The notes under the pieces are model-generated. The model did no database searches, was not told the origin of the DNA, and saw only the letters and a list, made by a program, of their open reading frames with translations. Positions 8,117 through 64,000 of a stretch of 64,000 bases of DNA are shown here, one piece after another. The position numbers and the translations under genes were made by a program. Source of the DNA: Xiphophorus maculatus (Eukaryota; Chordata; Actinopteri; Cyprinodontiformes; Poeciliidae); NCBI RefSeq assembly GCF_002775205.1, contig NC_036446.1:19220565-19284564 (forward strand). Reading direction: 5' to 3'. Within the stretch, counting starts at the first letter, position 1. Every line of letters starts with the position of its first letter.

Positions 8117-11100
8117 TTAAACCATTGATGATAGTGTATTCTCTTCAGGACAGTGACATGGGCTGGATGTTCGTAGGGAGTGAATGGTTGGCGGGGCACC
8201 CTCGCTTGGCGAAAGATCGTTGAGCTCCTCAGAGGATGAGAGAGGAAAAGATGGGGACAATGATATGCCTGAAGAGGGATCAGCAGATCCAGCAAAAGTG
8301 CGTGGAGGCTTGGGAACAAGGTTAGGCTCGAGTGTTGCTCTGGCCAGCAGCTGTGCATCATCCAGGTGCTGTCCATCTCCAAGACATTCACCCTGTCCAA
8401 AAGAACCCCTACCCGACTCTGACTCCCCATCAGACAGGTCCAGAGGAGGTGAGCTGCTGCCGTCCAGTCTGAAGAGAGAATCTAAGTACTGTGCGAACTC
8501 TAGCACAGCCTGACTGGGGTTCCCATTTGTTAGCTGGGGTGGAGCAGTAGAAAGGGCTAGACTGGTTTCTTCACCCAACATGTTCTGTGTCATCTCCAGC
8601 TCCAAGTCCTCGTTTTTGCTATCCATTAGTCTAGAGTCAATCTGTGGGCTAAGTGGAGTATTTGGAGTGCTCCCTGGGCTGTAGACACCAGGTATCTGAT
8701 CCCCATCACTAACCATTGTTGGAGCTGCATTAGACTCATGTTTGAAAGGCTGAACACACTGATTTAAAAGAGCTGGGGAATGGGGTCCACTGTAGCGTGG
8801 TGTGGCAGGAGACAGCCTCATAGGGTAATCTGGAGTGGATCTGGATTCGTGTGGGGTAAAGAAGGGTCCAACTTCACCTAGGTGCTCTGGTGTTGCCGGG
8901 CAGAGGCAATCTGCAGCCAACAATTCAGTACGAGAGCTGAGAGATGGGTTCTCCTCTGGTATTGGGGCATCCAACGGGAAAGGTAGGCTACCCAACATCG
9001 GCGAGCCCCTGAAGGCCGCTGATGAGCGCCGAGAATCCAGGCTGTAAAGAGACTCTGCATCTGAGAGACTCTCCATGACGGCCAGTGGTGCCTTACGGTC
9101 CCTCAGCTCCACCGCAAGGCGCTCGCGTGCTCCACGCAACACTACAGGAACTGGGGGAGGAGGGCACTCAGAGAAACCATCCAGAGATATCTCAGACTGG
9201 GCACACGAACTGGAGGACAGGAAAAGAGAGGGCAGGAGAGGGATGACAAGGACAAGAGGAGAGTGGGGGACCCAGAACACAGGATAGACAATAAAAGTGG
9301 GTCAAAACAACTTTTGGCGGGTTAAAGAAGGGAGGGAAACAGGTGTTAGTATTGGCACTATATCTACATTCTCCAAACTATGTGCCCAAGGCAACATATT
9401 AGGTCGATGGAAGAAAACACACAGACATCAGACTAAAAGGACCAGGGGTGCTGATCATTTTGCTCATGCTTCCTTGTGTCCATGAAGAGGATATTATTTT
9501 TATGACAAAACAACTCAAAGAAAGGATGTTTCATATCATGTCATTTCTTTTAAACCTCCTTACATGGCGTATCTCAAACAAGGATAAACGTTTGCATAAT
9601 GAGAGGCACCCATGGAGCGTGTGCTAGTAGTGCATGTAAGCTCTTGGATTAGCATCATATCCAAAGGGTAAAATCAGATTTCAAACATTACTACTATCAG
9701 AAATTCACACTGACTTGGGACAAGGACTGAACCAGAGAGGGCGAGGTGGAAATTGAATACTACCATACGTTACAATTGCTCTGTGGATAGACAGCGTGCA
9801 GGCGTGCAAGAGAGAGGGGATCATATTGTGCAGAGTTAGTACTAACATGCCTTGCTTACCGTAACAAAGGTTTTTCTCTTTTTTTTTTTTTTTTTTAAAC
9901 AGACAGACAATAATTTGAGAAAACAAAGTAGTAATTAGTATCAGTAGTATGTCTCTTAGCACCACATGGTTAAACTAAAGCTACAGGCTAAGGATGAAGT
10001 TTCACATGTTCTTCGAGGCTCAAGCACACTTAAAACAGTGGCCGGCATACTAACCGAACGCTGCTGTTTCTGCGATGGTGGGTTGTTGTGGGTGTCGGCT
10101 CCTGAGAAGCTGCATCCACGAACAAAGTCTCAGGGTTCAGATCTACTTCTGTGGGGCTCACCATAATCTTGGCTGCCGACAACAAAGCCGTTTTTCCTTT
10201 ATTGTAGTTCTCCAGAACCTGTTATTAGCACAGAGGCACACACACACGCGCACTTCAGAGGACGTCAGAGATAAATGGTGACAGGTTTGGGGGATGTGCA
10301 ATGGAGAAGTTGAAAAAGTGGCCAAGCAAGTGAAAACAGATGAAAATAAAATAGTTTATCACTTGAAATGACAAGGAACTTTCTGAAAACAACCACAAAA
10401 AAACTGGCATATTCATCAAATTACTTATTTTGTTCAAGTCTTTTTTAATAAAAATTAGAAGCAGACTCACTCATAAAAATCCTAAAATGCATTTAAAAAG
10501 CCTTTAGATTACCCCCAGGACAAAAAATGCTTTCAACAAATGTCCCAAAATTACACAAGACCAGACATGTTTGCATCTGATTTTTTTTAAAAAGTAGCAT
10601 TCATACAAATGAAAGTGCAATCTAAAAGATAGCTTACAACCTGCTCAAAATGACATTAACCACACAGAGTAAACGAGATACCTCAGGGAGAACTGTTCAA
10701 GGCCCACAATACTCCTGTGATACAATAACAAAACATATTTCAACTTTGTGTGCTTAAAAAATAAATAAATAAAATCCCTTTTGTCTACAAAGTAGTAACA
10801 GAGCAAACACCAAAATTACATATGTTTAGTAAACTTTAATGAATTAATACATTAAAACAAACATACACACAGAAAAATGAAGTGTTAAAATGACATGCGA
10901 CAGAGATAAAATACAACAGATACGATTTAGTAATTTAAATGCTATTAAAATAAGTCACTTGGTTATATAGAAGGGTAGGGAGCATTAAAACAACATGTTA
11001 TTTGGCAATGTGCAACCCCTATCATTTCAGTCCATCAATAATGATGTATTATTGATGCAAGGGATAAACTACTGCAAATATCCATGACCAATAACAACTA

Positions 11101-14100
11101 TTGCATCACTTGTAACTGAATGCCAAATGAGACAACTGATGGCAGAAATGATGCATGAATGATGAGGTTGTACTGCAGTCCCAGAAGTTGCACATTTGAG
11201 TGGTTCATATTCTAAATGACACAACATTTGAAGTGTTTTTCCACCTTTCAGTATTTAAATATGTAAGTCTAAACATTGAGTTTATACCAAGTCCAAGTAA
11301 GTTTGTATTTTTTAAAGAAACATGTAGACTTTGTGGGAAATGAGCAAAAAAAGCTGATCAGTTTGTTTTTCCACCTTTCTCTGTGAATAAAACTTGATAA
11401 AAGTTGAATATTTGAAAAAATTAAATGAGGGAATAATTATCCAGAAAGAAGCGCTGCACTTACTGAAAAACCTAACCAAGAGTGGTGGAAAAAAAGAGCA
11501 GTTAATGAGGAAGAAATTACATTACCATGGAAACTCTGAACACAATGAAAACTTGTTAGATTGTGGAACAAGCATCACAAATTTTGCACCAAGGCTCTTG
11601 ACTGAATGTACAGTGGCAGACAAAAGGCTGGAAAAGAATCAAAAGTTATTTTTTCCAACGTCACCAGAAAAGATAGAACATAGTTAAAAATGTCTTTAAA
11701 ATAAGTTAGAAGCACATTACAAACGACACCCTAAATTTGTGGCCTAATTTCAAAGCTTTTCCTCACTCACATTTAAAACAGTAATTGCCCAACCCTTGTA
11801 AACTTGTCAGTTAAATCTCCCCACTTTCTACTTTTTCCCCAAAAAAGCTGCGATGCCTTGATGTATTTAACCATTGGTTTATGTGGAAAATGCAGCTAAG
11901 CAATGGACGACTTCTACAAGTTAGTCTCAACTTTACTACCACTGGGGTTCCTCTAGTCTTTTGTTGAGAGGTCTTTTGTTGTTTTTATAGTGGGAGGAAA
12001 GGGAAGGTCTCTCTTTTAAAAAAGTTACTCCGTTCTTCTAAAGTTGCCCTAAAAGCCAACACCAAAACAGTAACAAATCTATCTGGCCTTTTCATCACAT
12101 CACAAGTAAGCAACAATTAAACTAAGTGCTTAAATTGGCATTTGAACTGAGAAATAGCTTTAATACTGAGTGTTATAAAATCTTACAGATTCCCTTATCT
12201 TACAGTAAACTGCAAACCATTGTAATTTGCAAGGAGCTCTGTGATGCTACATTGAGCGAATCATTTTCAGTAAGAGTGGAGTTTGACTCAAAAGACTGCC
12301 CTTCAAAAAGATGGGTAGGCATCACATCTTCATTAGAGTAATGGATGCATGGCACAGATTTGGTTTTTGCTGGTAAGCATGAATCATTTTCATCTGGAAG
12401 AGCTCCTGTGTGAGGGTGTGAGGAGATGTTAGAAAGTGAAACGACAGACATCAAGCACGGCTGGGAAGAAGAGGTGCACCCTGACAAAGGAGGAGGTGGA
12501 GAAACAGACTCGGCATCTGGAAAAGAGAGAGAAGTGTGGTCGGTTGGACGGAAGGGGACAGCTTCATTTTCTGTGTGGGATTCAGTGCCAGACAGGTGTT
12601 TGTGGGCGATGGAGGAAGTATCAGATGGAAGAGGTCTGGGGGTTAGCTCTCTTTGTGGGGTTATAATCAAACTGGTGTTGCAGGATGACTGACTGACTTC
12701 CAGTTCCTCCAGTTCCAAATTTTTCTGCTCTGCAGGGGGACAAAATGGTTCCAGTACCTGTTGAAACACCAGAAATATCACACCAAAAACTGGGAACAAA
12801 AGGCAAATACACATCCAAAATCAAACTAACCTACAGAACTTACAACACCCATACACAGACAGAGATATAAAGTCTCCAGCCACAAAAAGTGCAAACCCCG
12901 TAGTTGGATCCTTCACATGCAGACATACACATTGACATCTCGTTATCAAAACAGATGTTCAACATCCTAGAAGAACCAGAGAAGACCACGAACCAACTGT
13001 GACAGAACAGTTCCCATGCTTTGAGGAGCGACAGAGAAAAAAAAAAAAGACAAAAAGGTGAAGTTGTGGGTTAGGGATTAACATGCACAAATAAACCTAT
13101 CAATAAACTTGAACACTTTCTACTGCTTCTGCATACAGTTAAAAAAATGTGTGGACTAAAACATCAGAAAAGCAAAATCTATCAATTTAAAATATATTTT
13201 AAAGGATTTACTTCCTGTGCGCAATACTAGAAAACATAAGATACAGTTATATTAGAAAGCAACCAGATAATCTTAATGGAATTAAAAGGCTGATCAATCC
13301 TTTTCAGTGCTTTAAGAACATGGTAGATATGTTCAACCTTCTGCTGTATACGACAGTCTGTCATTCTACAACTCAAGTTACTCCCATTTATAGCAAAAAA
13401 AACACATTATCTTTTATGTTAGAAGCATCTGATACATGTTCACCACCAATTTTATTACCCAGCACTGGAAGTCAAGAGCAAAACTGGAAGGACAATTTGA
13501 AAAACACCCTTGGAGAGAAATGTAAACATGCAAAGAATGAAACAGACCTTGTTCAGGCCCTTCATAACCATGTGGGGCATGTGCTCGTTCAGCATGGCCG
13601 GCGATATGATGACCTCGTTGAACCCCTTGTTGTCTCCCCACAGCGCCGAGTATGTCGGCTCTTCCTGTCCACAACTAGAGAGGCAGAAATCCATCAAATT
13701 CACAACACATATCGATTTTCTCAACATATTGAAAAAGGCAAGTACAAACATTTTTGTGAAATTTAGCAAGTATATAGGAAAAAACTATTCAGAGAGGAAT
13801 GTGTTGAAGATTGGATCATAAAACTCTAAAAGGAAGCTTGTTGGGTATTTTTTCTTACTCTGTTCTTACAATCTGCATAATAAATGATCTTGGTGTGAAT
13901 GAGATATGCTCTGAATTGAGACTTGGAGCGTTTACATAAATGTCCAAAAGTATGTGAGTAAAATGAATAAAAGAATGCTTGTCTGAAACAGCAGTAGATG
14001 TTGAGGATATTTTCTACAATGAAAAATGTTTTCAGCAATTTTTTTATTTTTTATTTTACTTCGAAGAATCTCCAGTCGTCCTTTATGTGACATAAAAGCT

Positions 14101-17100
14101 TTCCAAGCTTGAAAGGATGACAGATTTTTCACTCAGTTTCAGTTCAGTTCTTGTATATGGCTACATTCAGAGCATTCATTTTTCCCTTCAACAGAGGAGA
14201 CATGAGCCCCAAACATTGGCAGTGTAGATTAAACAACTGAGACTTGATGTATATCTCATGTCTTCTCTTTGACCTTAGCTGGACTTTCTAAATCCTAAAC
14301 TTTTAGGTTTAGGATTTAGATACTGTTAATGTGTTTTGGACATTATTTTTATGGTAAGCACTCGAGTTTCAAATAAATATTACAAAACCTGGTGCATGTC
14401 TTCATGTTTCAGTCCAAACATACTTGTGAGTTGACAATTTGATTACAAAAGACAGGACATTAAGAAAAAGCACGACTCATGTCCACCAATGCACATCTTC
14501 AAAATCTTCACAAAATGTACTGGAACTGCATTGTTTTTAGAACTTTTTGAATAGTTTTCTGACCATGACTCTGGTGGATGGTTGTGCACCACATGGATGA
14601 TCCTGCCAGGAGGGTAGAGAGGAGTGGAGGCTGAGAGGGCAATGCTCAGGTCACTGGGGTGTAGCCATAGACGACTGCTGGGGGGTGCTGCAGGCTGAGA
14701 TGGAGGATCGTCATCTTCTACTGGAAGCTCTGATTTGGGGATGCATTTGGTGCCTCCCACAATGATCCTCCACTGTCACAAAAATACAGATATTACTTTT
14801 CAAGTTAATACTATTCATTGTTTCTTTATAAAGCAGCTTGTTATATAATTGGTTAATAAAACTGTATTTATGTGGGACTAATTGACCCCCCAAAAAATGT
14901 CAAAGTTAAGTTAGCGTAATCTTTTATACTACAAAAACTGAAATTACCTTTGGCTTGTTACTTTTCTGTAAGACCTCCAGAAGGTGTCTTCTAAAACCCT
15001 CCAACTGGGACAGGCCGAGCCTATGAAAGACAAGAGGCTTTAGCGGTAATACTGTTGGAAATTAATCACAATATATTTGATCCATTAGTAGAAATACCTT
15101 GGTACGAGGTCTTTTCCTAATACCACAGATGTAACAAACTCTTTGGAGTACTCCATGGCATCCTCACTGGGCAAACAAGACAACATGAGAAACTTGAATA
15201 ACGTAAACAACTTGTGTGAAGAGTGGGACGGGTCTGAGCCAAAAGGACAACTTCCTGCTTCTGCAAAACAGTTGCACTTTAATAAATTCATGCACAAAGG
15301 GATTATCTGTTTTTTTACAATACAACTTTAATGAACTTAGACTAATCCAGAATTTGATATGAAACACACTGAAACTGCAGCATTTCTGATTTTCAACAGC
15401 ATAATTTTCTTACTTAAAAGGAACTAAAACTCTGTGAAAAGGTATTTGCCCCACATATGCTTTTCTTCTACTTTTACTTTTTTGTTACTTTATAATTTAG
15501 CAACATTGAAATTTTTTCTTCCAAAAGATTTCGGTCATTTTGTTTAAAACTATTCATAGGTGCAATATAAATAGCTTCATGCTCATATGCAACAGGATCC
15601 CTGTCCTGTTGCATAACCCCAGTGGTCTTAGGTTGGTGTCACAGACTGCTGGCTAGACACTCCAACTTTGGATTTTTTTTTGAGAACTGTCATCACACTA
15701 CTGATCCATGAGCTTCCCCCACCCCCTAATAAAAAAAAATCATAATGCATTATGTATTTACTTTCATTTAAATTTTAGACCATCATGACATAAGCATGAT
15801 CTGAAATGTGTAAAATTGTAAAAAATAAAGAAAAACAGAACCAATCTTGGGGGCAAATAGCTTTTCAATCTCAGTTTCTAACATCACATTGTTCTACATG
15901 GTGCAAAATGAGCTTCGTCATATGTTACTTTTATTACCCCCATTGCACTGGAGTGACACAATTTATAATTTAAAGCATTTGGAGTCTTTATTCTAGCTCT
16001 ACTGAACAATGCTAAGTTCACTGTGCAAGACGCAGTGCAGTGCAATGAGGGTAATGTGATTCTGTACTATGCATCTTTCATCGATAAAAGCATGGATAAC
16101 ATTGCATATTTGTGGCATGCAAAACCTCAAAATCCATTTTCACAGCAGCCAGACTGAAAGTGAACTCATCTAACTGCATAACGTGTTCACAGTCCACTTC
16201 ATTACCACAGAACTGACATGTAGCCCCGTAGACTCTTTATCTAATAAGCGCTAAGGTAACATTAAATGCTCTTCTAGGACGTTAACATGTTTTGGTTGTT
16301 GGTCACAATTCTCTGGTGGTTCTTTCCAAAGTCGTCAACTATTTTTGACAGCTTTAAATAGAACATAAATATAATAGAGATAATTATCTCTACTCACATT
16401 GTTAACATTTCTAAGTAAAAACAGGAAACAATCATGAAGCCTATAGAGGTTTTACAGTTGCCAGCAGTGTTTCACATGCATTTTACATGTGATTATTTAA
16501 ACAAAACATCAAACAAATACATCAGATGAGCTCTTCTAGAGGACATTTCAGAGATTTAGAATTAAGATGCAACAAGCAACTTAAATAAGAGGAGGTGTTT
16601 ATTGTGCAGTAGTGACATGCGAATGGTTCCTTTAAAAAAACAAAAACACTCCATTTCAAAACATAAACATAACAATTCTACCTCATTTAAGCATTGAATG
16701 ACTTCTTTCAATTCTTAGAACAGAACTGGGCTCACTTTTATAAAATGAAACAGGCTAAGTTACCTTAGAAGGCCACCAGGTGGAGAATAAGAGTAGCAGT
16801 GGAGTGTGGGATACTGAGGTCTGAGCAGGAAGGAGAGAATAGCAGCAGTGCCTGCACCAAGAGAGTGGCCGACTATCACCAGCCCATAATGCATGGTGCC
16901 CTTACTCTGTGGGAGACAGAGACATTACACTCACTACAGCACTATCAGCACAGCGAAGAGTCGCACTCACAACAAGCCTCTTTAGCTGTTGGCATGACAT
17001 CTTCTTAGCACAAATGGCATTTTATGGTATTTACACATTTAGCAAAGCTTTGAATAAGGTACAGCAGTTAATGTGAGCACACAATCTACACAGAATCCCT

Positions 17101-35597: not shown

Positions 35598-38199
35598 TAC
35601 TGGTTTAACATTGTGCTTTTACATGTCTTTACCCTACAATAATTCATACACACTTACACAGCACCTTCTATTAATTATCTGTAGCTTGTTTTCTTCACCG
35701 TCATACCCTAATTAGCATTACAGAGAGGCATGGTGTTCATAGTTCATTAAATAAACTTTGACCAGTGAAGTGGCCATTGAGTCTACCACTCTCCTTGCAA
35801 CTTAAAGGTGGTAACTCAGCACCAGAGTTAGATTAGAGTAGATTAGCCAAGAACTTTAAATCTCATCAAGTTATCTAATTGTGTCTGGTCAGTGGTTCAA
35901 GAATGACAGCTAAGATAGAAGAAGAGATAAGGGAAACTGCAAGCCTGAATTTGCTTTTAAAAAGAAGCTTCTCTAACGCAACAATCCAAGTAAATACCAT
36001 TGAATGTGTATTTTTACAAAATAAAAATCAGACTAATTAAATTATTGAATGTCAATGTACATTTTGTTTGCTTTATGATTGCTCTATGTCCCATTGATCC
36101 AAAATGCATTATAACATATTTTGTGTGCAGACACAGAAAGAACAATATGAAGAATAACCTGACCTTACAGTTGAAAGATTGTGATGGAGAACAAAATGCA
36201 TCGATTATTTCAAAAATAGCACCCAACACTTGAATCTTTCTAAAGATGATACTGATCAATAAAACTGAACTGAAAATGGCCAAACACGCTTCCAAGTCTG
36301 GCTCTCCTTCAACTGAACATGGCGCGCCCTCTACTAAATGTGAAAGATAATATATGTCAGCAGAGATCCTGTACTCCAATATGTGATACATACTCTCTGC
36401 ACAAACAACTGAAGATTCGCTCCATGAGTCTCTTTGGTACTGTTCAGTGAAAATTAAAAACCAATTCATTATTGATGTAGTGGGAGTCGGGGAGAAGCTT
36501 CCCAATATTAATAATGAGTTGAAGTTTCACTTTGTATTGAGAACCTTCCTTCTCAAGCAGTGAATAAACCCTGTTCTTATGCCTAAAGCACAGGACACAT
36601 CGTTCTGTCTGCATAAAACCCAAATCTAAATGTATAGAACCTGACCCTCTACGGCAGCTCTACAAAGCAAGCAAACACTTCCATGCTAAACTGCTGCTCT
36701 TGACTCCGCTATGATATGCATTCGGCATGAGTCATCCAAACTAAAACTCCCATCCTGAGTGTCTCCGTCTGCAACCAAATGACATATGTGTTTTTGAAAA
36801 GGCTAGGATATATTGCTGCATGTGAGCAAATGTTTTGTGCCCCAAACACAGTGTGCTCCTGTGTGCCAGGCTGATCCCCACGTGACTACATAACAATGAA
36901 GTAACAACAATGCCAGGGCTCCCAGTATTTCCCGATGGCTTTGTCCCTGATGGAGATAAACAATGACAAGGTATGCTGTGGCTTATCTAGGCTGTTTGAA
37001 ATGGTGCTTGTATTTAAACATCAAGCAAAAAAATAATCAAATTTCTATTTAAACAACGTCTATACATCTCTCAGCTGCTTGATGTAAACAGCAAATATGT
37101 AGTTCTCATTGCTGCAAAGCATTGCATTGAGAACTCCCCGGATCTCAATGCTCAAATATCTACACAGACATGGTAAATAGAGCAATAAACCACAGTGCCG
37201 AGAGAGCCAATGACACTAGATCGGGATCTAAAACCAGGAGCCAGCACTGGTTTCCATTCCTTGTTTTGTTCAAAGTAGGTTGATCTGGTATCACTACCAG
37301 CTGGTGTTTTCGTTTCCCACTCCTCCATCTCACAGAGAGCCTGCTGCAGCAACAGCAGCATCAAGAACAAGCTGTGGCACACAGACTGCTGCTCGCAGCC
37401 TCATTATTTTTACCACATTCCCTACCTGTGTAACCTGCTCATCTATCACCTCAATATGCACGGCAAGTAAACACCCAAGCTGTCCATCAAGCATTTCCAG
37501 ACAAGCAGGTCTTAGAAACTGGTTTGAAAACAAACAAACAGATGACAAATACAAATCCACTATCACAACAGAGGCACACAAGTCTGTACTTTTAAGGATG
37601 TGGAAGATCAAATAAACAGAAGAGTTTTATAATCTTCTAATCTCAAGACATATGCTTGTTGATTAAGATTATGCTCATTACCAAGCATTGCACTCTAATT
37701 TCTGTAATAACATGAAAGTAACACCTATTACTTATATATTTTGAAATGTGTGTACTTATGAATGTTTTTATGTACCTCTTAAAACTAAATATAAAAAAAA
37801 ACAACAAAAAATCTTAAATGTGAGTAAATGCTGCAAAATGATAGTTCAATCACAGACATTTTGACATTTCAATGCCATAAAAATTTGGGTCACCATACAC
37901 CTGTGTCTTAAACTAATGTTAAGAGTCCAGTTAACAGTAAGAATGTGGTTCTGGAGTTTGTTTTAAACTGAGTTATAGCTAAACAGAGTGTGTTGTCATT
38001 TCCTTTGGTTTTTGGTGGTGACAATCTTAAATCCAAACATGCAAATTTGGTCATAGCAGAGGGCTAATAACCCATTCTAAATGAAAAAAGTACTTATAAG
38101 TGTCAAAAACTAAAGTGTAAGTTCTTTAGTAGCTTTTGCAAAAATAAAAAAAATTAAAAAATTAAATTAAATTTAAAAATTTTTAAAAAGCAAATAAAA
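35598..38199. other. dagla intron 1, nothing recognised
   Basis: No exon or known repeat. The 163-codon minus frame at 36014-36505 lacks resemblance to any family I know, and the overlapping opposite-strand frames at 37152-37615 are alanine/serine-biased without splice support. Confidence 0.45.
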
Positions 38200-47594: not shown

Positions 47595-48132
47595 CCCTGG
47601 CACAAACCCGTCTTTTTAAAGTTCTGCGCATGCTCATGGCCTATAGCGGTGTTTTTCAGCGTTTGTCGTTTCCACAGTGACAACATAGCGATGCAGGAAG
47701 AATATCAACTGTGATGTGAAAATCAATTTACAAAACTGATTTTTGTTTTTACGTTTTTAGAAACAATCTCATGTGAAATCATGCAATATACTTTGTGTTT
47801 GGGAATTAGGCTACTGTATATTACTAAAGATTAAAGTAAATATTTTGTTGGTGCTCATTCACTGCAAGCCCGATGTACTCCATCTAGAGACTCTTACATC
47901 TGACTAGTCAGGACAACAGATTTTAACAATACCCACCAAAGTGCGTGATTAGAAAATAATATAGAATAGAAAGATTCTTTGTTCCTCAGTAGGAAAATAG
48001 CAGCAAAGTCAAAGGCAACAACACACAAACATACACACTGAGTTATTACAGATATAAAAGGAGAACGCAGAAATGTGATGGGAATTTGTTCAACATCACT
48101 TATCTGTTCTTTTCTTCCAACACGGAGATCGA
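47594..48132. other. Intergenic, nothing recognised
   Basis: AT-rich DNA between the CA repeat and the tetranucleotide array; no gene-like signal. Confidence 0.5.
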
Positions 48133-49395
<1,263 letters not shown>

Positions 49396-49594: not shown

Positions 49595-50342
49595 GTAAGC
49601 ACATCAATTTTCCTCTTGGACCGTATCACAGCAGTATTCAGAACAGGAGCCATTTTTGTTAGGATGCTTCTAGCCTGCATTTTGTGAAATTCATACTGTT
49701 GTGATGCAATCTCTCTCGACCTGATTTATTTCTCTCCATTTTCACTGACTTGCTTTTCATTCATTTCTTCCTCCATCGATGGATGCTCTCCTCCATCTTG
49801 GTATCCATTTATAGCACATATGACTCATTAGGTTTTACAGTCAGACAGAGGGCAAGGCAGTGAAATATATTAAATACTTTTCATCTTGCTCATGTCAGGG
49901 GCAACAGAACAAGGATTCATTTAGATGTACATCTTTTAGCACTGTCACTCCTGCCTTCATTACTAAATTACATGATTGCAGAATTTAACCAAAGAAAAAA
50001 ATCCTAACACATGAAGCAGCTCTGAATGTGATCACCGTTTTAGAGGGTGGTTTAGTTACAGTATTTATGGCCAATATAAACATTTTCATGTTCCTACGGG
50101 TATTGAAGTAGTCCCATCAATGCCATTTTTCCCAAGGTCACATTCCAGACTCACACATGGCTATCAGGGCCTCATACATATTTCATTCTAACCACTCACA
50201 TCAGAGCACATAACATGATGACGGGGGCAAATTGGAAAGGATAATCTGTCTGTTTGCTGTTTTTCGCCAGTGAAGCAGCTCAAAGCTGACCTTGTAAAGA
50301 CTCTTACTGACCAGACCATACCACACCTGTGTCCCTGAATCC

Positions 50343-50633
50343 ATGGAAGCCAAAGCCAAGGCAGGGGCTCCAGCACCCAAGGCAGCATCCAAAGCAGACA
50401 AGAAGGAGCCAGCAGCACCACGCAAGGCTGATCACGCCCCTGCGGCCCCTGAGCCCGAGGATCCCCGCTTCTCCTCCGTTCAAGATGGAGCAGCAGAAGC
50501 TGAGTCAGCAGCGGGTGACAAGGCCTCTGGTACAGACTCTGTGGAACATCTCAAGCCTTTTCTTATTGGCGGTGCCATTATCGCTGCAGGAGCCATTTTG
50601 CTGGGAGTTCTGCTGCTGGCAAGGAGAAATTAA
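50343..50633 (+). CDS. cend1: CEND1-like (BM88) small tail-anchored neuronal protein, 96 aa
   Basis: An acceptor (TTTTTCGCCAG|TGAAG) at 50271 leads to an ATG in a fair context and one intact 96-codon frame. The N-terminal 70 residues are low-complexity, rich in Ala, Lys, Pro and Asp/Glu (MEAKAKAGAPAPKAASK). The C-terminus is a hydrophobic segment (about 72-92, FLIGGAIIAAGAILLGVLLL) ending ARRN, as expected for a tail-anchored protein. Human CEND1 has the same plan: a disordered Ala/Pro/Lys head, a motif like NPLLVAGG, and a basic end. The polr2l neighbour matches human 11p15.5, where CEND1 and POLR2L are close. Known role: CEND1 promotes cell-cycle exit and neuronal differentiation. The protein is shorter than the human one (149 aa), and the disordered part aligns poorly, so the name rests on tail plus synteny. 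Confidence 0.65.
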   Translation: MEAKAKAGAPAPKAASKADKKEPAAPRKADHAPAAPEPEDPRFSSVQDGAAEAESAAGDKASGTDSVEHLKPFLIGGAIIAAGAILLGVLLLARRN

Positions 50634-61741: not shown

Positions 61742-64000
61742 ATGTTGTCTTCAATTGTTGCAAAAAGAGTGAGTTGTCCGATTAATAACTATTTCGCGTG
61801 TGTTGGTTGAAATCTCACTTCTGATGCCACCGACTCTTGGCTAAGGTCATCCAAAAATATTCGAGTCAAATGTTAAAGAAAGACAAATTAATAAAAGTTA
61901 TATTTTGAAACACGAGTCTGGGTTTCTAAAGATGCCACATCAAACTTGTTAATATTTCTGTTAGATTAGGTTGTTGTACAACAGGACAGCTGTTGTTGAC
62001 ATTACACAATTCTAGTCTGTTTTTTTACTGCATGGTTTTTGTTGTACATGTTGGTTCAAGCTCGATTCAAACCTAAACATGAAATCAGATATCGTCTTTT
62101 AATCGTCCTTTTTAGCCTTTTAAATTCCAACAACTTTTATTTCAATGCTATTTTTTTCCCAATAACGTCTAATTTATGTAGCAATCTCAATGCACTTTAC
62201 AATACAAATAAGTCAATTTAACACGCATTTCCAGAAACCAAATTAAAGTCAAGTCAATCTCACTTATTCACTTGCATTCTAATGACCTGGTGTAACATTC
62301 AGATTGAGGTACATATCGTTCAGTGCAAACCTAACTGCAGCACTGTACCAGGTCTAACTATGTTGATCATGCTATAATGGTAATTGGTTAAAAAATAATG
62401 CACGGAGTGATTCACTTTGCAGTAGATTAAGCAGAAACCTTTGAATCAGCAACGTATCATATTCATGAGATGTTGAAGTTAGGGACATAACTAAATTGCT
62501 TTTGCTGTATGTCAGTTGGTAACAGGAATGTGCCAGGCAGTTTGGAGACCAGCCTTCACAGTATCATCTCGAGGTTACAAAGGAGAGGCTCCTGACGACA
62601 ACAAAGCTGACCTAATAGAGATCTCTCTGCCACCCTGGGTGGAGAAAACAGATGAGCCCGTTGACATCAAGAGACGACGGCTTCTTTATGAGAGTCGCAA
62701 GAGGGGGATGTTGGAGAACTGTATACTGCTCAGGTTGTTATACACTTTTTTGTTTGTTGTGTTGTTTGATTGGCAATATTTTATTTTAATTTTGTTTGAC
62801 AGTGTAAAGAAATTAGAGTCTAATTGTATGTATTTGTTTAATTTTTAAGAAATGTGTTCTTGTGTCTCTTGCAGCCTTTTTGCAAAGCGGTACCTGAACA
62901 CAATGACTGACAGCCAGTTGCAGCAGTATGACAGATTGATTAATGAACCGAGCAATGACTGGGACATCTACTACTGGGCCACAGGTGACAAATTTGTTTT
63001 TCACTAATTTTTTAATCATAAAAAATTTTAATCATAAAGATGTTGAAATATTACATTTAATTCAACAAATATTTCATAATTATTTTCTGAATTATAAATT
63101 ACATTCTTATTAATTTAGGTAAACTTATTTATGGAACTGAGTGAAATTCTGCCTCCTAATCATACCAAAAATAGTTCTGACCAATCTACTGTTCTTAGAT
63201 ATAATTTGAGTTATATGAGCACATTTCCTACAGACTTTTCAAATAAGAGTGTGGAACGTCTCATGACAGACATCTCCATTGGGTAAATTACGAAAGTACA
63301 CTGTAGTACTCGGTAAACTCTTAACTTTATTCTGAGACGGAAGCTGGTCTCATTGTATGTAGCGTAGGACATTTTACAAGATCTGGAGACAAGACAACTG
63401 AGTGAAAGAAGTGCTGCTCATGAAAACATACAATTGCAGTAGTGCTGCTTAATATAGCGAGGATGATATTGATTTTGATTAACTCAGCTGTTTCTACATC
63501 TTTTGTTTCGTTTTCTTCGTCACAATGCTCCCACCTCTCTTAGTGTATTTTAATATCCCAGGCTCTAAGAGATATTAGACTCTGTGTGGACACTAATAGG
63601 GAACGTGAGCTGGGTTTAGAACGTTGTGAGACAGGTTAGTTTTACCCTTCTGATGATGTGTTGTTGCAATAGTAATCCTGCACACAGAGTCTAATACACT
63701 GTGTGGACAGTGATCACAGACAAATTGTATTCAAGAAGCCAAATATATTATGTGCTTGTAAAATTTGCATATGTGTCTCTTAAAATATAACATCCTAGTA
63801 AATATTGAAACCAAGCACTCCTTTGCTATCGCAGTGTTACACATTTTTATTGCTGTCATCTTCTTTTATTTGTATTTTTTTCCTTTCAGAAGCCCAGCCG
63901 ACACCTGAAGTGTACCAAGGGGAAGTTATGGAAATGTTGAAAGAATTCACAAAAAACAAAAACCATGAACAGAGATTGGATGCACCCAGCTTGGAGTACC
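61742..64000 (+). CDS. sdhaf2: Succinate dehydrogenase assembly factor 2, mitochondrial (3' end cut by window)
   Basis: Exons 61742-61768, 62516-62733, 62875-62984 and 63890-64000 (partial) join in phase to 155 complete codons. The first nine codons (MLSSIVAKR) plus the start of exon 2 form a basic, amphipathic mitochondrial presequence. The conserved SdhE/SDH5 fold follows: [20 protein letters not shown], the family's R-G-M-LEN signature, then [26 protein letters not shown] and [15 protein letters not shown]. Known: SDHAF2 in the matrix helps attach FAD covalently to the SDHA flavoprotein of complex II; the RGML(E) region is important for this. Human SDHAF2 (166 aa) continues only a few residues after LEY, so the missing part is probably fewer than a dozen codons. 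Confidence 0.97.
63574..63695. repeat. Separated 15-bp inverted repeat in sdhaf2 intron 3
   Basis: ATTAGACTCTGTGTG at 63574-63588 and its exact reverse complement at 63681-63695, 92 bp apart. This could be the termini of a small unrecognised MITE or chance plus partial duplication; no target duplication is evident. Confidence 0.5.

Follow-up and report, generated by a model that had tools for sequence, protein, structure and literature searches.

The window analysed here is the whole of a 64,000-nucleotide stretch of Xiphophorus maculatus DNA. On its minus strand, from 25534 to 8204, lie exon matches to the human DAGLA sequence, which served as guide for a 19-exon spliced model of dagla (using donor 22906, not 22930). 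The model encodes 1081 residues and has a single stop, at its end. Pfam Lipase_3 is found in the product at 47.5 bits (cut-off 22), and GHSLG, the motif of the class 3 lipase serine, occupies residues 469-473; the lipase domain with this motif and the exon-by-exon similarity to DAGLA identify the product as sn-1 diacylglycerol lipase alpha. The product of DAGLA, 2-AG, is the main endocannabinoid of the brain. DAGLA has four membrane spans, and a PPxxF motif in its tail is the Homer site. Through Homer, DAGLA is kept near metabotropic glutamate receptors (excerpts of a review, PMC11314389).

The long dagla intron between 13548 and 10218 contains a segment, 12757-12203 (-), of 185 codons without a stop (Table 1). 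The other two sense frames across this segment are interrupted by 6 and 12 stops. The stop-to-stop run to which it belongs starts at 12820 and measures 206 codons; the longest sense runs in the seven other dagla introns of more than 300 bases are 66 to 89 codons. The GC content is 0.464 within the frame, compared with 0.357 and 0.338 in the adjoining intron. Since the dagla exons up to 13548 add up to exactly 663 codons, the frame is entered in phase 0, and the alternative product would have 848 residues in place of the standard 1081. The start of the segment, GTACTGGAA, and that of standard exon 18, GTTCTGGAG, both read Val-Leu-Glu, the two differences being synonymous. (Of the 7973 AGs that the window has on its two strands, 4 stand directly before VLE codons, those of the standard and alternative exons included.) The open frame with its TAA, the phase, the shared Val-Leu-Glu start and an ATTAAA soon after the stop had all been claimed in a sequence-only reading of this DNA, and all are borne out.

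Table 1. Features of the alternative and standard 3' ends of dagla in the window
Feature	Position	Strand	Basis or remark
dagla coding exon 17	13548..13674	-	Spliced model; common to both forms; donor AAG/GTCTGT
UG-rich stretch, possible CELF/TDP-43 type control	12758..13007	-	TGTG/GTGT count; adjoins alternative acceptor
Alternative 3' splice site, TATTTCTGGTGTTTCAACAG	12758..12777	-	AG directly before 12757
Coding part of candidate alternative last exon (185 residues, VLE start, CSLL end)	12203..12757	-	Open frame and statistics
CSLL codons, putative CaaX box of geranylgeranyl type	12203..12214	-	C-terminal four residues
TAA stop	12200..12202	-	Overlaps donor-like ACT/GTAAGA, GT at 12203-12202
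ATTAAA poly(A) hexamer	12159..12164	-	35 bases beyond stop
Standard exon 18, start VLENYNKGK	10055..10218	-	Spliced model
Standard last coding exon, with PPRTF, end SSMV and stop	8117..9209	-	Spliced model

The features expected of an alternative last exon, an in-phase acceptor, a frame open to its stop and a downstream poly(A) hexamer, are all present. The acceptor scores 4.68 on a hand-entered weight matrix, ninth of the 167 intron AGs scored; the standard acceptor at 10218 scores 1.0. Five AGs with scores above that of the alternative acceptor sit within the frame. The only one of these five in phase 0, at 12460 (-), scores 7.67; splicing to it would shorten the tail to 86 residues and leave its ending unchanged. 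The ATTAAA (whose final base, 12159, is where the sequence-only reading began its range) is followed by GT-rich sequence; three further AATAAA or ATTAAA hexamers in the same intron make it weak evidence by itself. Upstream, the stretch adjoining the acceptor contains 12 TGTG/GTGT in 250 bases, compared with 3.85 per 250 elsewhere in the intron, a density that is unsurpassed among 250-base windows taken at steps of 10. Such a UG-rich upstream setting is familiar from exons controlled by CELF or TDP-43.

A frame of this kind could also be a chance opening in a pyrimidine-rich patch of intron that is never spliced in, an explanation that we consider unlikely. Stop codons require purines, so that a C/T-rich stretch easily stays open, and the strong acceptor-like CT tracts within the frame reveal just such a pyrimidine bias. 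In block shuffles of the intron, the longest sense run reaches at least 186 codons in 25 of 3000 cases and at least 206 in 5 of 3000; with the larger dagla introns pooled, 186 codons are reached in 2 of 600 shuffles and 206 in 1 of 600. Shuffles of the whole window, searched on both strands, yield 186 codons in 13 of 60 cases and 206 in 6 of 60, so that open length by itself is only modest evidence at that scale. Against chance stand the local dinucleotide shuffles of the frame, which leave frame 0 open in none of 5000 trials and any frame open in 1 of 5000, and the combination of signals: an acceptor scoring at least as high as this one, followed by at least 185 in-phase open codons, appears in only 1 of 4500 shuffled introns (0, 0 and 1 per 1500 at block sizes of 100, 250 and 1000, respectively).

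Coding signal beyond mere openness also argues against a chance frame. A frame statistic trained on the position-specific base use of the standard last exon favors the correct frame by 17.4 natural-log units, a value matched by 8 of 2000 stop-free null sequences (the same count in a repeat run), and both halves of 12757-12203 favor that frame. The three-base periodicity chi-square of the 185-codon frame, 20.7, is matched by 28 of 3000 nulls, and by 14 of 2000 in a second run; the chi-square of the full 206-codon run reaches only the 0.034 level in one scan and is matched by 65 of 2000 nulls in another. Another 13 long open stretches, chosen by hand, all fall short of 0.05 on both tests, while the stretches assigned to CEND1 and the presumed CPSF7 ones (see below) attain it.

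What the tail-trained statistic can be taken to mean is limited by its behavior elsewhere. The 9 other dagla exons of at least 40 codons, each read in its true frame, all miss the 0.05 level, and in the presumed CPSF7 region the statistic disfavors the presumed frame (1936 of 2000) and prefers another. Because it misses most other dagla exons, the test shows that base use at each codon position is like that of the standard tail exon, and not general coding status; pyrimidine-rich composition of the kind that would keep a chance frame open may partly drive the result. A scan was also made of the 64 open stretches of at least 85 codons that overlap no dagla exon, the 19 that do overlap one being counted apart. 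The tail model gives 0.01 or less for 6 of the 64, with the 206-codon run at 0.004; the remaining five are the CEND1 stretch, 57895-57533, 59585-59277, 56270-55974 and 37626-37333. We take 57895-57533 and 59585-59277 to be CPSF7, and 56270-55974 overlaps a presumed CPSF7 exon in a different frame. On the chi-square, 10 of the 64 reach the 0.01 level, and the 206-codon run is not one of these. Among the 19 dagla-overlapping stretches the standard last exon comes out on top, and the off-frame stretch 13674-13417 reaches 0.01.

Some results on codon use tell against the exon. With a position model built from all of dagla, which is uninformative here, the advantage of the frame is ordinary (equalled in 961 of 2000 nulls). 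The synonymous codon log-ratio against an intron background is -9.58, where draws from dagla codons average +21.27 and neutral draws -24.08; this is lower than in all 2000 dagla-codon draws, and 2.25% of neutral draws are as high. An off-frame background changes these fractions to 0.1% for dagla draws and 1.15% for neutral ones. Synonymous codon use is thus not dagla-like, and only intermediate between coding and intronic. Third-position GC is 0.416 in the frame, compared with 0.549 for dagla overall and 0.465 for the last exon of that gene. Such values would suit an exon that is young or weakly expressed, and would also suit a chance frame.

The proposal of an alternative last exon, as put forward from the sequence-only reading, gains from the statistics on phase, length, periodicity and the joint acceptor test; codon use, the weak chi-square of the full run and the narrow scope of the tail test tell against it. 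With the codon evidence mixed in this way, 12757-12200 (-) is judged to be probably, and not yet securely, a real last exon that dagla can use as an alternative.

Use of the same segment as an internal exon would have other consequences. If the donor-like ACT/GTAAGA that lies across the stop were joined to 10218, the resulting frameshift would expose the transcript to mRNA decay, and the coding frame would be incidental or would matter only in terminal use. The site scores 0.35, which is higher than three of the 18 dagla donors (that of exon 17, at 1.55, is the eighth lowest), and the stop of such a transcript would fall 103 bases ahead of its last junction. Having T at position -1 and ranking 20th of 231 intron GTs, it is nonetheless a weak donor, and splicing from it leaves both the periodicity of the 185 codons and the poly(A) hexamer unexplained, so that a hybrid or poison exon is an improbable account. 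That the intron harbors a small gene of its own, using the run from 12820 with its 21 further open residues ahead of VLE, an early ATG and a hydrophobic stretch as possible signal or anchor peptide, is likewise improbable, as the hydrophobic stretch is the translated T-rich tract of the splice site, the chi-square weakens from 14 to 65 per 2000 nulls once it is included, Pfam gives no match above cut-off, and the exact phase and the VLE start agree with dagla.

The favored reading, an alternative last exon of dagla, would append a tail of 185 residues that is acidic (net charge -16), rich in Ser and Thr (26% together) and rich in Pro as well. Its 16 Glu compare with 5.5 expected for an open null sequence of equal dinucleotide content. 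The tail was said in the sequence-only reading to be unrelated to the standard one and to lack PPRTF, and this agrees with what is found: no PPxxF occurs in the alternative tail, and comparison of the two tails shows no significant likeness, the best local score of 45 being equalled in 511 of 1000 shuffles. The tail exon as a duplicate of the standard one is accordingly unsupported past the first three residues. A repeat or mobile element was considered and rejected, there being 0 tandem repeats in 9000-15000 and no convincing second copy of the segment in the window. Pfam and PDB searches with the tail return nothing convincing (the best are Drf_FH1 at 0.085, far under the cut-off, and 0.82, respectively). 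Relatives of the tail in the viral and prokaryote collections, and of a standard-tail piece in the viral collection, are lacking, as expected, and this is uninformative; the window contains no Rfam match at gathering score and no tRNA.

The C-terminal CSLL has the geranylgeranyl-type form C-a-a-L/I/M at the extreme C-terminus. The box of RAC2 is also CSLL, and is tabulated with a 20-carbon lipid in the excerpted part of PMC7674641; CaaL, CaaI and CaaM are given as targets of geranylgeranyltransferase I in that of PMC11152559. Among the ends of 2133 open frames of at least 20 codons in the window, 28 are CaaX-like and 6 fit C-x-[ILV]-[LF], frequencies at which the box of the alternative tail could be due to chance. 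CSLL is a possible candidate for a lipid-anchor signal. The CSLL end, the weak donor-like site over the stop and the in-frame acceptor at 12460 are additions to the sequence-only reading.

What the alternative last exon might do can be set out as follows. If it is used and the transcript is cleaved near the ATTAAA, all parts encoded upstream, including the lipase domain, would be retained, and 418 residues with PPRTF would be replaced by the 185-residue acidic and probably disordered tail. The terminal form would presumably set DAGLA free of Homer. More conjecturally, geranylgeranylation of CSLL could anchor the end of the tail in the membrane rather than on the Homer scaffold, and 2-AG might then be made away from the metabotropic-receptor complex. 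Because DAGLA already spans the membrane, a lipid would position the tail and not recruit the enzyme. Exon usage may be tuned by the UG-rich stretch ahead of the acceptor and by the weak donor-like site across the stop. The best reading is of a skipped exon that would give up Homer docking in exchange for a tail that is acidic and free, perhaps with a lipid anchor; from the swap of tails we infer that synaptic placement could be altered, as had been suggested. The full scheme, in which some fish would have a second, prenylated DAGLA without Homer docking, and the choice of last exon would set whether 2-AG is synthesised at the scaffold of the metabotropic receptors or at other membrane sites, is put forward tentatively, as possible but doubtful. 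A natural form of DAGLA with another, possibly lipid-anchored tail would, if true, make tail-based placement in 2-AG signalling testable in the animal by removal of either exon.

In the literature matches listed, as titles and the starts of abstracts, no mention is made of DAGLA having an alternative last exon; genome annotation databases and subscription journals lie outside that scope, and an annotated fish isoform may therefore well exist. Partial parallels come from other proteins. The brain and ubiquitous forms of CDC42 are likewise produced by alternative last exons (6 and 7) that alter the C-terminus and its lipid box, and are placed differently in neurons (excerpts of PMC10883850 and PMC6411841). 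In CDC42, however, the change is confined to the final 10 residues and each form has a CaaX box, whereas in dagla 418 residues would give way to 185 and only one form would have the box. The placement of CDC42 reporters is, moreover, credited to the 3'UTR and not to the protein end (excerpt of PMC6411841). With OAS1, as would be the case for dagla, splicing gives a single form, p46, a CaaX box (CTIL), which relocates it to membranous organelles; the p42 form, in contrast with DAGLA, is mainly cytosolic (excerpt of PMC6950736). In the neuro-ocular DAGLA-related syndrome, C-terminal mutations are similarly reported to leave catalysis intact and alter localisation (excerpts of the review PMC11314389). 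These are human disease mutations without a replacement tail, whereas the normal fish gene would encode one.

Several other open stretches of the window deserve mention. The frame 50298-50630 (+) encodes a relative of CEND1 (PF15677 at 26.9 bits, slightly below the cut-off of 27), and 62495-62845 (+) a piece of a relative of SDHAF2 (Sdh5), at 21.1 bits compared with a cut-off of 27. Stretches within 59585-55974 (-) resemble CPSF7 exons, which we take them to be; Pfam gives no match for the two CPSF7-like pieces scanned, 57895-57533 and 56379-55993. A long open frame at 48042-48521 (+) is mostly simple repeat and reads LSIYLSIY. The stretch 37333-37626 (-), with 98 open codons, reaches 0.01 on both periodicity tests and may be the shadow of a gene on the opposite strand.
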